From: Pseudomonas sp. TH15
GTDB taxonomy: Bacteria > Pseudomonadota > Gammaproteobacteria > Pseudomonadales > Pseudomonadaceae
Assembly (NCBI RefSeq): GCF_016651105.1
Contig: NZ_JAEKEL010000001.1
Coordinates: forward strand, 5,136,001-5,200,000
Direction of reading: 5' to 3'
Length of the DNA stretch: 64,000 nucleotides
Under the pieces are notes generated by a model that was not told the origin of the DNA, did not search any database, and saw only the letters and a list, made by a program, of their open reading frames with translations. Positions 32,816 to 40,657 of this stretch are shown piece after piece. Made by a program: the position numbers and the translations under genes. Position 1 is the first letter of the stretch; each line of letters begins with the position of its first letter.

Positions 32816-33047
32816 GCGAGCTAGAGGCACAAGCCGGCGGATTCTGTCTTAGGTGTAGGGCGTGGCGCAAGGTGTTGTAGGCCTAAGCGCCCTCAACATA
32901 GACCACATTAAACGCCAGCGATTTGGTCGTTTAAATGAAAAGGATACCCGACGTTGAAAAATATATTATAGATACAAGCGCCAAAAGATTTACACAAGAC
33001 CAATAAAAAGGTAGATGTGCCTACAACAACGGAAGAATTGTTGCTAG

Positions 33048-33743
33048 TTAGTGTGGATTGCTAGTTTTGTAGCGATGCTTTTGGGAAAGCGCAAATTCGT
33101 GTTGGTACTTTTCATGTTTTTCATAAAGTGAAAATAAATCATCAGCCAGAGCCCTCTCTACCTTTCTACCTCCAGTTGCGTGCTCTAGCGCACGCCAACA
33201 AAGAAAAAGCAGAGTAGTTTGCTGAACGGCAAGCCGAGCGAAGTGAGCTCGTTCCATCAAACACCTTTCTTCTGGCTCCCGGGTGACTCTATCGTACATG
33301 AAATCCATAGCGGTTTGATCCGCATGAATTAGATGGCTACTAATACCATAACTGTGTAACAACGAATCATAACGGGTCAGATCAAGTGTTGGTTCCTTTA
33401 CCTTTTCGAGAACTCTAACCATCTGTGAAAATGACCATTTCTGATTCAGTATTTGTCGCTTTGTTTTTGGCCATCTAGAGCGAAGTTCTGCCTCCCTATC
33501 TGCATCCAATGCCGCTCCATTGAATAACATCGCCGAATTAGCATTAATAGAATTTCTACCAGCAGCCCTAGCTTTTTCGGCGCGCTGGATATCCTCAATT
33601 TCCTTTAAAAACACCGTACACTCAATAATTCTTTCACCTCGCTCTGGCTGTGAAGCAATACTAACAAACAAGAAGCGTGTGGCACACTCGAGAGCCGATC
33701 GCATCACAATATCGCTATCCCAAAGCTTATTTTGTTGAAGCAA
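33048..33743 (-). pseudogene. DUF5677-like hypothetical gene, 5' end broken
   Basis: The 231-codon frame, mainly helical and low-GC, contains DIVMRSALECATRFLF and LARLAVQQTTLLFLCWRALEHATG-like segments resembling DUF5677-type proteins (moderate recognition). It has only a TTG to start. Directly upstream in the same frame, past an in-frame TAA at 33774-33776, the sequence continues as coherent protein (QRLLHDSILVYSKVRDVFAH, then SIENCREIDAEYARFTGAQMH) for about 50 codons but without a start codon. The simplest reading is a nonsense-mutated and 5'-truncated gene. It follows the DUF262 gene and its terminator on the same strand. Confidence 0.55.
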
Positions 33744-33992
33744 TATATTTACGGCTTGGCATCTAGATGCGTATTAGTGCATTTGAGCTCCAGTAAATCT
33801 CGCGTATTCTGCGTCGATCTCCCGGCAGTTTTCAATAGAATGTGCGAATACATCTCTAACTTTTGAGTAGACCAAAATGGAGTCGTGAAGAAGACGCTGG
33901 ATATGCAGATACCTTTTATTGTGGAGAATAGAGAATCACGAAAAATGGAGATACACAGAACAATAGGAGAATTTATCTTTTCAAGCTCTAGT

Positions 33993-34027
33993 TCAAAAAA
34001 TAAAAAAGGCCCGCATATTGGGCCTTT
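33993..34027 (-). terminator. Intrinsic terminator after the DUF262-AlbA_2 gene
   Basis: On the minus strand AAAGGCCC-AATATGC-GGGCCTTT is followed by TTTATTTTTT. The perfect 8-bp stem with a T-rich tail begins 14 bases after the stop at 34042. Confidence 0.85.
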
Positions 34028-34041
34028 CGAACAAACAAACG

Positions 34042-35817
34042 CTAGAAACGCTTGGCTATTGTTGCAACTTGCATTGCATCCTCCGCCTTTTTAGTTTCGT
34101 CACCATCCCGCCAATAAACCTCCCCACCAAAATAAGAAATATCCTGCTGAGGTTTTATGGTAATTACAATTACGCCAAGCCCAAAGTACGAATTATAGTC
34201 CATACTCGATAAAACAGACATTTTTAGGGAATCAGAAAGCTTTGAATCAGCAATTGAACGTTTCCAACGCGAATAATATTCCTCAACGCTGATTTCGAGC
34301 TGTTTGGCTTCTCGGGCGATCCCTACCACGAAACGATGCCCTACTTTAGCAGGAACAATGCTATCCAAACGCGCGACCTTGTCCGCATCAGCCTTCTTGT
34401 CAGTGACACCAAGAATTAGTTTCCCCATTTGCTTTGGGCCGTTATTTGCGATAGCACAGATTGTTTTTAAAACTTTGGCAATAAGATTCTTGTCAACCTT
34501 CCGTTCTGTACCGAGCGAGAGCATCCCTTGTTTCAATTCATAATTTGGAAGCTCAATTTCCGAGCGTTTGATGAGAGCGTCAATATCAGCAGTAGCATGA
34601 TCTCCATAAATCGGCTCAAACTCGCCAGCATCCACAAAGAAATTATCAATTAACATTTTAATAGTATTAACGTTAATTCTTCGCTCTTGAGGCGACGTAG
34701 ATTTTTTACTAGTTTCAACTCGCTCGTTCAAATTGGTGATGATCTTCCTTATTCCGGCGTAGTCAGAAATCCTCTTTTTCTCTTTAAAAACCAACTCATG
34801 AAAAGCAATCATAATTACGGCAAAAAACGAAGGAAACGCGTTAGTCGTCTTCGTTTTAAATACAATATTTCTCAATTTGTTAGCCGGGGCGACGTGACAC
34901 ACTTTCAATATTTCGTCTGTGCAATGCTTGAATTCTTTCGCAAAACGCTCTGCCCCATAAACCTCCATCGCATTCATTATTTGATTGCTTTCAGCAGTCT
35001 CAAAATTATATATTTTATCTAGAGCATCTTTGGATCTCTCGATCAAATCCGGCCCTACTATGCAAGCAGCAATGTCGGCGATACATTGTTCATCCATGCT
35101 ATCTCGAAGATCTGTCGACTTCAAAATCCCTTGATTCACCCAAAATACTTCATCAGCCTGAATTTCGTAACCATGCTTGGTTTTCGGCAAGTCAATACTA
35201 ATAGCCGGCATTGCACGTAACACTAACGTATCAGAAGACTCATCTCCTCTTAAGGTACATGCAATCAAACGCACCATGTTCGAAAAATCGTTTTGCACCC
35301 CTGCTTGTCGCCGCTCTTGATCACTTAGTCGGTGTCCATAAGTGTTGATGCGATCAAAAACATCATTAATTTCTGCATCTGTAGCTTGACGCATCACCGA
35401 TAAGGCCAAGGGGTAATCGAGTAGGGTGCTGACCTGTTTCTGCGTAATATATTCATCAGCGGTTTCGGCAACAAAATCACCATCTACTGAATATGCAAGA
35501 GCGGTAGGAAAGAAATTCAGATCAAAAAGCTCTCCCTCAAGCGTGGGGAATGAGGTCTCAATAAACGAAACGATGGCGTGCAGGCGCTGCAATCCGTCAA
35601 TAATCTCGTAAGTTCCTGCTTCCTCTTCCCGCTCTGCTATCAAAATTGCTGGGATTGGATATTTTTTCAGGATGGATTCTACAAGCTTCTGTTTTTCCTC
35701 TAGCGTCCATACTAACTTTCGTTGATAGCGTCTATTCACGTACAACTTATCTTCTCGATACCATGTATAAACAGATTGGATCGGAGTCTGTTGCGAAGCT
35801 AATTCTGCCATTGCCAT
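34042..35817 (-). CDS. DUF262-AlbA_2 (Schlafen-type) fusion protein, candidate defence gene
   Basis: 591-residue soluble protein. The N-terminal half is a DUF262/ParB-Srx-like domain as in GmrS and related restriction proteins: YVNRRYQRKLVWTLEEKQKLVESIL (about 26-50), then YEIIDGLQRLHAIVSFIE around 70-86, and FDRINTYGHRLSDQERRQAG. A helical middle follows. The C-terminus (about 422-560) is an AlbA_2/Schlafen-type nucleic-acid domain: ELPNYELKQG, ICAIANNGPKQMGKLILGV and YFGGEVYWRDGDET. AAGG lies 6 bases before ATG. GC is far below the flanks, indicating transfer. DUF262 proteins often act in phage or modified-DNA defence. That role is inferred here and no partner methylase or HNH gene is seen. 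Confidence 0.75.
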   Translation of the reverse strand: MAMAELASQQTPIQSVYTWYREDKLYVNRRYQRKLVWTLEEKQKLVESILKKYPIPAILIAEREEEAGTYEIIDGLQRLHAIVSFIETSFPTLEGELFDLNFFPTALAYSVDGDFVAETADEYITQKQVSTLLDYPLALSVMRQATDAEINDVFDRINTYGHRLSDQERRQAGVQNDFSNMVRLIACTLRGDESSDTLVLRAMPAISIDLPKTKHGYEIQADEVFWVNQGILKSTDLRDSMDEQCIADIAACIVGPDLIERSKDALDKIYNFETAESNQIMNAMEVYGAERFAKEFKHCTDEILKVCHVAPANKLRNIVFKTKTTNAFPSFFAVIMIAFHELVFKEKKRISDYAGIRKIITNLNERVETSKKSTSPQERRINVNTIKMLIDNFFVDAGEFEPIYGDHATADIDALIKRSEIELPNYELKQGMLSLGTERKVDKNLIAKVLKTICAIANNGPKQMGKLILGVTDKKADADKVARLDSIVPAKVGHRFVVGIAREAKQLEISVEEYYSRWKRSIADSKLSDSLKMSVLSSMDYNSYFGLGVIVITIKPQQDISYFGGEVYWRDGDETKKAEDAMQVATIAKRF

Positions 35818-36151
35818 CCCATGCCTTTTTTTATCTGAACAAAGGTAATATCAATATCGATGCCGAGCATAGTGAAAAAAACAATCTTCGCCAAGCAAAA
35901 ACGATATTCGTCAAGCCCGTGAATGCTGAACCGCTTGCACACTAAATTTTGCAAAACCTATAGCATTATTGCTCTCACTTCGGACCGTACTTTTTCGCAA
36001 TGACGGCGCAATAGAACAGGAAGCTAATTTACATCCCCCCATTCATCCATTCGTGGTCATCAGAAGTCCTCCTATCTCGACTCACTCAAGCCTCTCCCCA
36101 CCGATCCTGATAAACTCCCCCACCTTCGCCCCTCTGATCCAGATTCCCCCA
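35818..36151. other. Low-GC gap between the DUF262 gene and dusA
   Basis: 334 bases with no supported gene. The first half is AT-rich like the accessory patch. Composition turns C-rich (CCTCTCCCCACCGATCC...) about 100 bases before dusA, marking a likely edge of transferred DNA. Presumed promoters of the DUF262 gene and dusA lie here. No att-like direct repeat was found by eye. Confidence 0.5.
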
Positions 36152-37138
36152 ATGCCTCTACAACCCGCCCCACTCTCCCGCCGCTTCAGCGTCGCACCGA
36201 TGATGGATTGGACCGATAGACATTGCCGCTTCTTCCTACGCCTACTATCCAAACAAGCTCTTCTCTACACCGAGATGGTCACCACCGGCGCGCTGCTCAA
36301 CGGCGATCACGACCGTTTCCTACGCCACAACGAAGCCGAACACCCGTTAGCCCTGCAACTCGGCGGCAGCGTCCCCCTCGACCTGGCCGCTTGCGCACGC
36401 ATGGCTCAGGACCACGGCTACGACGAGGTAAACCTGAATGTCGGCTGCCCGAGTGATCGGGTGCAGAACAACATGATTGGCGCGGTGTTGATGGGGCATC
36501 CGCAGTTGGTGGCCGATTGTGTGAAGGCGATGCGCGATGCCGTGTCGATTCCGGTGACGGTGAAGCATCGGATCGGGATTAATGGGCGGGACAGTTACGA
36601 GCAGTTGTGTGATTTCGTCGGCACGGTTCGGGATGCCGGGTGCACGAGTTTTACGGTGCATGCGCGGATTGCGATTCTGGAGGGGTTATCGCCGAAGGAG
36701 AATCGGGACATTCCGCCGCTGCGCTATGACGTGGCGGCGCAGTTGAAGAAGGATTTCCCGGAGTTGGAGATTATTCTCAACGGCGGGATCAAGACGCTGG
36801 AGGCCTGTCACGAGCATTTGCAGACGTTTGACGGCGTGATGCTGGGCCGTGAGGCGTATCACAATCCTTATGTGATGGCTGAGGTGGATCAGCAGTTGTT
36901 CGGCAGTACGGCGCCAGTGATCACCCGGGCCGAGGCACTGGCGCAGCTGCGACCTTATATAGCCGCGCACATCGATGCAGGCGGTTCGATGCACCATATC
37001 ACTCGGCATGTGCTCGGGCTGGGCACCGGTTTTCCGGGGGCGCGCAAGTTTCGGCAGTTGTTGTCGGTGGATATTCACAAGGCTAAAGAGCCTTTGGCAT
37101 TGCTGGATCAGGCGGCGGAGTTGCTTGAGGGGCGTTGA
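36152..37138 (+). CDS. dusA: tRNA-dihydrouridine(20/20a) synthase
   Basis: 328-residue FMN enzyme that reduces uridine 20/20a in the tRNA D-loop with NADPH. The ATG at 36152 gives the DusA start MPLQPAPLSRRFSVAPMMDWTDRH. The frame is open 61 codons further upstream. DusA marks are clear: flavin segment APMMDWTDRHCR, LQLGGSVP, NLNVGCPSDRVQNN with the catalytic cysteine, VKHRIGI, FTVHAR, ILNGGI and GVMLGREAYHNP. dusA is a documented integration target for a family of phage and island integrases, and here low-GC DNA abuts its 5' side. Confidence 0.95.
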   Translation: MPLQPAPLSRRFSVAPMMDWTDRHCRFFLRLLSKQALLYTEMVTTGALLNGDHDRFLRHNEAEHPLALQLGGSVPLDLAACARMAQDHGYDEVNLNVGCPSDRVQNNMIGAVLMGHPQLVADCVKAMRDAVSIPVTVKHRIGINGRDSYEQLCDFVGTVRDAGCTSFTVHARIAILEGLSPKENRDIPPLRYDVAAQLKKDFPELEIILNGGIKTLEACHEHLQTFDGVMLGREAYHNPYVMAEVDQQLFGSTAPVITRAEALAQLRPYIAAHIDAGGSMHHITRHVLGLGTGFPGARKFRQLLSVDIHKAKEPLALLDQAAELLEGR

Positions 37139-38989: not shown

Positions 38990-39730
38990 ATGATGCTCTC
39001 AGGGAACTTAGCGACTAGAAGCCCGCGCCCGACAAACGACGAACCCGGTGTTCTCACTTTGGGTCGTACCCGTGGCGTGGCTGAACATTTTAGAGCGCTG
39101 GTCGCCAAGCACGTGCGAACTGATATGGCACTTGAGGCCGATGCGTACGCTAGTTCATATCAGCACAATGAACACTCTGGTTCGTATCGCGCCATCTTCC
39201 TCGTCATCGACAGCCCACAGGCCCTCGAAGACAATCTCGCGCTGGTGGAGAACCTGCGCAGCGATAACTTGAAACCGATCATTTGCGCGGTCATTACCGG
39301 GCGAGGCGCCTTCAACAAGATCAAATACTATCTTGCCGGGGCGGATGTCTGTATCAAGCTCAATACCCTTTCCGATGATGGCGCCGACTTGCTGGGCGAG
39401 TTCTTCAACAGTGAAGAATGGCAACGCGAGATCAACCTGACGCTTGATCCGACACGCATCTGCTTGATGGATGCCAGCCGGAAACTCGACATCTCATTTG
39501 CCGAGATGAAGATCCTGGAAGCGTTTGCGCAAACCGGTAATCACATTCTCAGCCATGATGAAATCGCAGGCATCATGGGGCTCAATACCAATTTCTACGA
39601 CCCTCGAGCGCTGGAAAAATCGATCAGTCGCTTGCGTGGAAAAATCAAGGACATGTATGGTACAAACGCGATTCAGAGTATCCGCGGTTATGGCTATCGC
39701 CTGCTGCGGGGTCTGATATCGACTGCCTGA
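38990..39730 (+). CDS. Winged-helix transcriptional regulator with degenerate receiver-like N-terminus
   Basis: 246-residue DNA-binding protein. The C-terminal ~90 residues form an OmpR/PhoB-type winged helix (LDISFAEMKILEAFAQTGNHILSHDEIAGIMG, ALEKSISRLRGKIKDMYG, IQSIRGYGYRLL). The N-terminal ~140 residues have an alpha/beta pattern (YRAIFLVIDSPQALEDNLALVENLR, KPIICAVITGRG, YLAGADVCIKL) like a receiver domain. The usual acidic pocket and phosphoacceptor Asp are not evident, so phosphorylation is doubtful. It lies at the head of the exopolysaccharide locus and is a likely regulator of it. Confidence 0.78.
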   Translation: MMLSGNLATRSPRPTNDEPGVLTLGRTRGVAEHFRALVAKHVRTDMALEADAYASSYQHNEHSGSYRAIFLVIDSPQALEDNLALVENLRSDNLKPIICAVITGRGAFNKIKYYLAGADVCIKLNTLSDDGADLLGEFFNSEEWQREINLTLDPTRICLMDASRKLDISFAEMKILEAFAQTGNHILSHDEIAGIMGLNTNFYDPRALEKSISRLRGKIKDMYGTNAIQSIRGYGYRLLRGLISTA

Positions 39731-40000
39731 CTCAAGGGCAGCCACCTTTTGCATACGTACGAAGGATCGTCTGATGCAACCATATAGCCCTAGTTGTACT
39801 TCAAGCCTACCTATAAAAAAGCAATTGAATGAGCGCGACACCATAACAATAAACTTAACAACATAGCAGCAGATCGAGTGGAACTTATCGAGGGCCATTT
39901 CGGGCCCAGACCCTGCCTGTCGATTACTTCCAAGGAAGCAATTGCTCGCCTGCCGATTTACCTTTTAGCCAATTTTTGGTACGCAGTTAAGGAGAGAGAC

Positions 40001-40657
40001 ATGGAAACTAGTACAACCCTCCCCAGAAAATATTTTGTCGTCGTGACTCACAGTACAACGTCCCAGCGCGAACTTGAGAACCTCTTGTCCAGCGAGCGCT
40101 TCAATTCATTTGGCACGTCTCAGGCGCAAATGTTTGTTGAAGGTGTTGCTTCGCCCTCCTCCACTCCGATGGTGATGGAGTTCACATATCCCAGCGTCAG
40201 TCGAAAGAACGTCGCCCGCAGTATTGAACATGATACCCAGCGAATATTGGCCACTCTTGAGTCCGAATGGCTGGCCGCACAATCGACCAATCCTTTCCAG
40301 AGCATTCCGGTCATAACCGGCGAAAGCCAGACACCAGTGGCCATCGAAGCTGATATGCCTGCCAGCGAAACCTGGCATCTCGATGATGATCAGGGCGCAC
40401 TGGTAAAAGACGATGTCGAGATCAGCCTTACGGGCCTGGAAACAGCGCTGGTCAGAAAAATGCTCAACCATGAAGAGCGTGTTGTCAGCCGCGACGATTT
40501 GATTCTGAGCATCGGTCGAGAGCCGGAACAATACCGTGGCCTGGAAATGTGCCTGAGTCGCCTGCAGGACAAATTCAAAAGCGCGAGTAACGGTGAGCGA
40601 TTGTTTCGCGCCGTCAGAAATCGCGGTTACTGCTTGATCCAGGAAATCGTCGCGTAA
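40001..40657 (+). CDS. Second winged-helix transcriptional regulator
   Basis: 218-residue protein. The ATG at 40001 is preceded by AAGGAGAG. The C-terminal ~85 residues (VEISLTGLETALVRKMLNHEERVVSRDDLILSIG, LEMCLSRLQDKFKS, LFRAVRNRGYCLI) form a PhoB-like winged helix. The N-terminal part (YFVVVTHSTTSQRELENLL...) has no recognisable receiver active site. It follows the first regulator after 270 bases on the same strand and precedes the priming glycosyltransferase. The two appear to be diverged relatives acting on the same locus (inference). Confidence 0.75.
   Translation: METSTTLPRKYFVVVTHSTTSQRELENLLSSERFNSFGTSQAQMFVEGVASPSSTPMVMEFTYPSVSRKNVARSIEHDTQRILATLESEWLAAQSTNPFQSIPVITGESQTPVAIEADMPASETWHLDDDQGALVKDDVEISLTGLETALVRKMLNHEERVVSRDDLILSIGREPEQYRGLEMCLSRLQDKFKSASNGERLFRAVRNRGYCLIQEIVA

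Follow-up and report, generated by a model that had tools for sequence, protein, structure and literature searches.

What does a bacterial protein do that joins a DUF262 module to a Schlafen-type AlbA_2 domain? DUF262 sensors are best known for driving DNA nucleases, and a gene of the combined make-up lies in the window analyzed here, a stretch of 64,000 nucleotides from Pseudomonas sp. TH15. By analogy with relatives of its two halves, this gene probably encodes a single-gene anti-phage protein, in which the DUF262 NTPase would gate a Schlafen-type RNase that acts on tRNA or structured RNA and thereby aborts infection. The gene and its terminator are located as follows:

34042-35817, minus strand: DUF262-AlbA_2 gene, an open reading frame of 591 aa with an ATG start.
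34001-34027, minus strand: intrinsic terminator of this gene, an 8-bp stem AAAGGCCC/GGGCCTTT followed by a T-run.

Pfam assigns residues 24-171 to GmrSD_N (DUF262; E 3.5e-21) and residues 438-578 to SLFN_AlbA_2 (E 5.7e-8), and both matches exceed the curated cut-offs. As GmrSD_N recurs in all 25 and SLFN_AlbA_2 in 22 of 25 diverse family members, the fusion is no assembly accident. The full-length protein is matched by phrog_26759 (E 9e-235), which carries the PHROG label "unknown function". The original prediction had described a two-domain, low-GC gene beside dusA with its own terminator, and this description holds in all its parts: Pfam and the predicted folds of both halves agree on the two domains, the gene has a GC content of 42% against 56% in its surroundings, dusA directly adjoins it on the opposite side, and the hairpin with its T-run lies after the gene, where a 60-nt stretch of the terminator region folds with -16.3 kcal/mol.

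The N-terminal half comprises a module and two conserved motifs:

34639-35802, minus strand: N-terminal sensor module (DUF262 core and helical part), BrxU/SspE-like, residues 6-393.
35707-35736, minus strand: motif N28-R-x-YQRKL-x-W37, part of the predicted NTP pocket, from 37 full-length homologues.
35584-35598, minus strand: motif D74-G-[LM]-Q-R78, equivalent of (I/V)DGQQR in GmrS, from the homologue alignment.

In the AlphaFold2 model of the whole protein (pLDDT 84.3, built on a 25-sequence alignment), residues 6-393 match residues 1-421 of BrxU (7p9k) with Z 8.2 over 279 aligned residues and an rmsd of 11.3, a high value that is taken as the effect of domain shifts. Residues 1-161 match SspE (7drr) with Z 8.0, and the next structural matches of the N-terminal part are ParB-CTP proteins, DndI (9jfl, Z 5.6) and sulfiredoxins; the protein also gives a weak match to parB_part. 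Across the 37 distinct full-length homologues that form the conservation set, the motif from N28 to W37 is invariant except at positions 30 and 36, and D74, G75, Q77 and R78 are conserved without exception. Pfam domain, BrxU fold match and conservation together give the combination of DUF262 and a DGxQR NTP pocket that characterizes GmrSD and BrxU, and the role of the (I/V)DGQQR motif in GmrS has been described (PMC10952713). Pfam yielded no match to DUF1524 in the protein at E<=10, no PD-(D/E)XK domain and no HEPN domain. The models of PADLOC-DB match only the DUF262 half, with NsnA as the best match and PD-T4-2_A (E 4e-18) and others besides; no paper behind the PADLOC name NsnA was traced in the searched literature. 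Given the resemblance of the N-terminal module to BrxU and SspE, the predicted architecture would be that of a GmrS-type module in which the HNH nuclease of GmrSD has been replaced by a Schlafen-type domain. A stand-alone DUF262 domain of 172 aa is carried by T-even-like phages (L083:2444-2962, Krischvirus MK327935); it is 39% identical to residues 15-90 of the window protein, retains DGKQR and could be a decoy or counter-defence protein.

The other half of the protein is the AlbA_2 domain:

34045-34605, minus strand: C-terminal AlbA_2/Schlafen domain, residues 405-591.

Modelled alone with AlphaFold2, these residues reached a pLDDT of 94.2 and a pTM of 0.90. In the structural comparison with VIA-align, the top 19 rows (Z 11.0-6.2) consisted exclusively of AlbA_2, SAMD9 and Schlafen entries, and the first unrelated fold appeared at Z 4.9. 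DIP2311 was the best match (Z 11.0, rmsd 3.2, 138 aligned residues), and Z values of 10.3, 9.6, 8.1 and 7.2 were obtained for human SAMD9, the tRNase domain of rabbit SAMD9, pig SLFN11 and SLFN13, respectively. Foldseek also placed DIP2311 first (E 8.6e-6) and SLFN13 next (E 0.02). The Pfam match and these 19 structural matches identify the AlbA_2 (SLFN-box) fold, the absence of which from a predicted structure had been named at the outset as an outcome that would speak against the prediction. In sequence searches of the PDB, neither the complete protein nor the complete profile recovered a useful AlbA_2 entry, phmmer run on the isolated C-terminal domain returned chance matches only, for example proteasome subunits, and the C-terminal profile found SLFN11 weakly (E 0.09). 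The Schlafen-type assignment hence rests on fold and conservation, with weak sequence similarity to solved SLFNs (E about 0.1). Pfam and the model place one AlbA_2 domain in each chain, and the two-lobed pseudo-dimer of the SLFNs was not found. In the SLFN N-domain, two lobes clamp the tRNA, a pseudo-dimer that is not a feature of SAMD9. Because a single AlbA_2 domain per chain stands against this two-lobe clamp, a dimer may be needed, and for the same reason we do not file the protein as a Schlafen proper. One viral contig encodes, 1.6 kb from its DUF262-AlbA_2 gene, a stand-alone AlbA_2 protein of 392 aa (L057:4505-5683, minus strand, E 1.2e-16).

Whether this domain could act as a nuclease depends on its predicted active site, which comprises the following residues:

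34552-34554, minus strand: E422, predicted catalytic, first Glu of the SLFN triad by alignment, E in 37 of 37 homologues.
34531-34539, minus strand: E427-L-K429, second predicted catalytic acid (E or D in 37 of 37) and invariant lysine (37 of 37).
34399-34401, minus strand: D473, candidate third acid (GV-x-D), D or E in 37 of 37.

The original prediction had seen no catalytic nuclease motif, a view that has to be corrected, as the AlbA_2 domain retains an acidic cluster of the Schlafen type. Within the C-terminal domain, all 37 homologues share E422, K429, G431, N458, G470, G499 and R570, and position 473 is E in five of them and D in the others. In a weak profile alignment (E 0.09), E422-x4-E427-x-K429 is in register with ESQSIEFK of pig SLFN11 (7fex), and the third acid lies one residue downstream of the catalytic Asp of the SLFNs (GV-x-D versus GVD). 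The first two Schlafen catalytic glutamates, E-x4-E, have counterparts in every homologue. In SLFN13, Glu205, Glu210 and Asp248 are catalytic and are required for tRNA cleavage (PMC5862951), SAMD9 and SAMD9L have an equivalent triad, and SAMD9L requires the same site to arrest translation (PMC11221667). For SAMD9, E196 and K198 were reported to be essential, and basic residues including K198 are required (PMC12027330). Because the AlbA_2 half bears the Schlafen-type acidic cluster, an RNase effector is its likely mode of action.

Judging from their sequences, the two halves appear to be retained as one functional unit. Comparison of the L045 copy with that of E. coli W gives a dN/dS of 0.02 for the N-terminal and 0.07 for the C-terminal half; more distant pairs, among them those that involve the window gene, show saturation or near-saturation of synonymous sites, with pN well below pS. 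Where it can be measured, purifying selection on both halves is strong, and their divergences run in parallel (666 pairs, r 0.95). Members of the family are rare and patchily distributed, occurring in 5 of the 399 genomes from the genus and in 2 of 369 genomes of the class sample, the own genome included. A single-sequence scan of the genome contigs found one relative only, the IMG/VR scan gave 35 loci, and no record with a full-length copy was present in the phage collection. The GC content of the gene is lower than that of the locus in every locus examined, and no conserved partner gene was found among the neighbours of the homologues.

The site of the gene itself is delimited by these features:

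about 36151-37138, plus strand: dusA, the neighbour of the DUF262-AlbA_2 gene.
32886-36087, no strand: strain-specific low-GC insert of about 3.2 kb, GC 40-45%, with conserved flanks.
36176-36211, no strand: 5' end of dusA, att core of the prophage in the close relative G011, duplicated at both prophage ends.

On either side of the insert the sequence matches G011, ending at 32885 and resuming at 36088, and G011 served as the empty-site reference; G229, a genome of the same species, helped little in this respect because its neighbourhood differs. At the 5' end of dusA, G011 holds a prophage of ~43 kb with the integrase next to dusA and a GC-poor gene at each end, a STAND-NTPase/TPR gene (L079:7758-10259) at one and an AAA_21/AAA_15 gene (L081:7885-9282) at the opposite one. 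Both gene types are common in defence systems, which raises the possibility that dusA serves as a defence hotspot in the genus. The dusA gene is a documented integration site, for which a dusA-integrase family has been described (PMC4482086). As no integrase gene adjoins the window copy, this copy probably represents either a remnant or a piece of recombined cargo. Directly downstream of the gene, a low-GC ORF of 231 aa without a family match is present (33048-33743, minus strand). It was considered as a partner gene and rejected, having no family match, an in-frame stop just upstream and no homologue beside other copies; because its frame runs on upstream past this stop, to about 33900, it looks like a decayed gene. 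At 38990-40657 (plus strand), two adjacent genes with a lower GC content than their surroundings resemble, by sequence only, winged-helix DNA-binding regulators.

Relatives of the gene are found on prophages, satellites and plasmids. The gpA-portal slot of P2 (gpA to gpQ) holds homologues in 11 viral contigs, and the same arrangement is seen in the P2-like prophage of E. coli W, whose copy lies at 970033-971814 of NC_017635.1. Of 5426 E. coli genomes, 17 have this version with at least 80% coverage. In two E. coli P4 satellites, the psu-int slot contains a related version with 72% DNA identity over the aligned part, which was detected in 9 genomes (at least 80% coverage). Both slots are anti-phage hotspots with validated systems (Rousset et al., PMC9122126). 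Plasmid copies were found in Azotobacter (between traD and traL), on a Citrobacter IncC plasmid, on a Polaromonas plasmid and on IncF plasmids, where they adjoin pemIK; parM lies near one inspected plasmid copy. The proposed search for the architecture and its neighbours across genomes thus found homologues that are not confined to housekeeping contexts. With no conserved partner, with relatives in the P2 and P4 hotspots and with a dusA-site prophage in G011, the earlier idea of a single-gene cargo gains ground, and the defence reading is supported by the same hotspots and by the defence-like genes of that prophage. The E. coli W prophage additionally carries, between integrase and CI repressor, a gene for a KAP-family P-loop NTPase (L074:6561-8012), which is likely another accessory gene.

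The IncF version was matched in 803 of 5426 E. coli genomes, and only 105 of these matches have a coverage of at least 80%; a whole IncF-type copy, mostly plasmid-borne and more distant than the E. coli W version, is therefore present in ~1 in 50 E. coli genomes, and the match is incomplete in ~700, mostly on IncF plasmids beside pemIK. In the two plasmids inspected (L076 and L077), the gene is broken by IS1 at nucleotides 1276-1284, inside YDFKQG, and the 9 bp AAACAGGGA on both sides of the break correspond to the expected IS1 target duplication. L076 retains a DUF262 stub of 436 codons without the putative RNase half, and L077 has the separated AlbA_2 piece. The break may be one event that was spread by plasmid descent, or it may reflect selection against an effector that is toxic. 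The plasmid stub, which has kept DUF262 and lost the RNase half, is a natural deletion for comparison.

Several known systems resemble the protein in part. With GmrSD and BrxU, type IV restriction systems of DUF262 and DUF1524, it shares the DUF262 module with the DGxQR pocket and the mobile defence context, whereas their DUF1524 HNH nuclease (DHxxP) is replaced here by the Schlafen-type AlbA_2 domain. The phosphorothioate-sensing proteins SspE and DndI have the DUF262 core in common with it, but the effector differs, and neither the immediate surroundings of the window gene nor the listed neighbours of its relatives include Ssp or Dnd modification genes. The tRNases SLFN11/13/14 and SAMD9/9L share the AlbA_2 fold (Z 7-10) and the E-x4-E-x-K pattern, and SAMD9 also the single AlbA_2 domain; unlike them, the window protein is bacterial and DUF262-fused, has its third acid shifted by one, and lacks the second SLFN lobe and the other SLFN/SAMD9 domains. 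PD-T4-2, a DUF262 protein with HEPN listed for the system, plausibly follows the same logic of a DUF262 sensor and an RNase effector (PMC10952713), but here a fused AlbA_2 domain forms the RNase-type part; the HEPN component is absent from the protein, there is no conserved partner, and the downstream ORF has no family match. A bacterial Schlafen RNase in phage defence has been reported by Taboada et al. (bioRxiv 10.1101/2025.07.24.666596), as far as the citation of this preprint in PMC12839542 tells. The DUF262-AlbA_2 architecture is absent from PADLOC-DB, and DUF262 together with AlbA_2 was not found in the searched literature, in which DUF262 and Schlafen co-occur in separate contexts only; the preprint of Taboada et al. 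may include the architecture.

From these likenesses we infer a role in defence, an RNase activity with RNA and tRNA in particular as its substrate, NTP gating and a trigger: the AlbA_2 fold and the acidic site suggest RNA cleavage, following the Schlafen/SAMD9 family, and DUF262 suggests NTP gating, following GmrSD, BrxU and SspE (PMC10952713). The N-terminal GmrS/BrxU/SspE-like module would bind and probably hydrolyse a nucleotide in response to a cue of infection, which might be phage DNA marked as non-self by its modification or otherwise. It would then free the C-terminal RNase (E422, E427 and D473, with K429 for RNA contact), which would cleave tRNA or other structured RNA, translation would halt and phage production would be aborted. 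As cargo, the gene would travel with P2-like prophages, P4-like satellites, dusA and prophage sites, and plasmids. In its most specific form, a one-protein immunity in which a GmrS-like NTPase senses infection and a Schlafen/SAMD9-type tRNase arrests translation, the proposal is quite possible and is put forward tentatively.

The strongest competing explanation is a type IV-like enzyme that acts on DNA: its DUF262 module would recognize modified phage DNA, and its AlbA_2 domain would cut or clamp this DNA and not RNA. AlbA_2 domains can bind DNA too, and many bacterial AlbA_2 proteins have no known activity. The AlbA_2 domain of human SAMD9 was solved bound to DNA (7ksp), the entry of SLFN5-N is titled "ssRNA cleaving and DNA binding", the N-terminal module matches the DNA-acting BrxU and SspE, and homologues are named "GmrSD restriction endonuclease domain-containing" at NCBI, all of which would fit such an enzyme. 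However, the protein has no DUF1524/HNH or PD-(D/E)XK domain, and its acidic cluster is of the RNase kind found in SLFN13 and SAMD9, so that we consider an action on DNA unlikely.

The many copies on conjugative plasmids, beside pemIK or between traD and traL, could also indicate that plasmids or other mobile elements are the target and not phages, or that the protein serves competition between elements. The analogy here is PFLU4242, a DUF262 and DUF1524 protein that makes megaplasmids costly and is harmful only when a plasmid is present (PMC8544851), and the IncF copies of E. coli, most of which are incomplete and which in both inspected cases have AlbA_2 split off by IS1, would agree with it. 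The IS1 break may, however, be a single event inherited with the plasmid, the effector of PFLU4242 differs, and the prophage and satellite copies occupy anti-phage hotspots; we regard this alternative as improbable. A regulator or partition protein, with a ParB-like N-terminus, nucleic-acid binding by AlbA_2 and no nuclease activity, would account for the ParB-CTP structures that match the N-terminal core, for the weak parB_part match and for parM near one inspected plasmid copy, but the residues of the predicted pocket and acidic site are conserved as in enzymes, neither the prophages nor this chromosome showed a par operon beside the gene, and the P2 and P4 hotspots harbour defence genes, which makes it a very remote prospect. 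We therefore think that a single-gene anti-phage protein with a Schlafen-type RNase is the preferred reading. As such genes are present in E. coli W and in ~1 in 50 E. coli genomes, it is readily testable. The effector of a well-known DNA-restriction family would here have been exchanged for an antiviral RNase fold common to humans. If this is true, databases that name such genes restriction endonucleases mis-state their function, and the family would mirror in bacteria the antiviral logic that SLFN11 and SAMD9 follow in humans.
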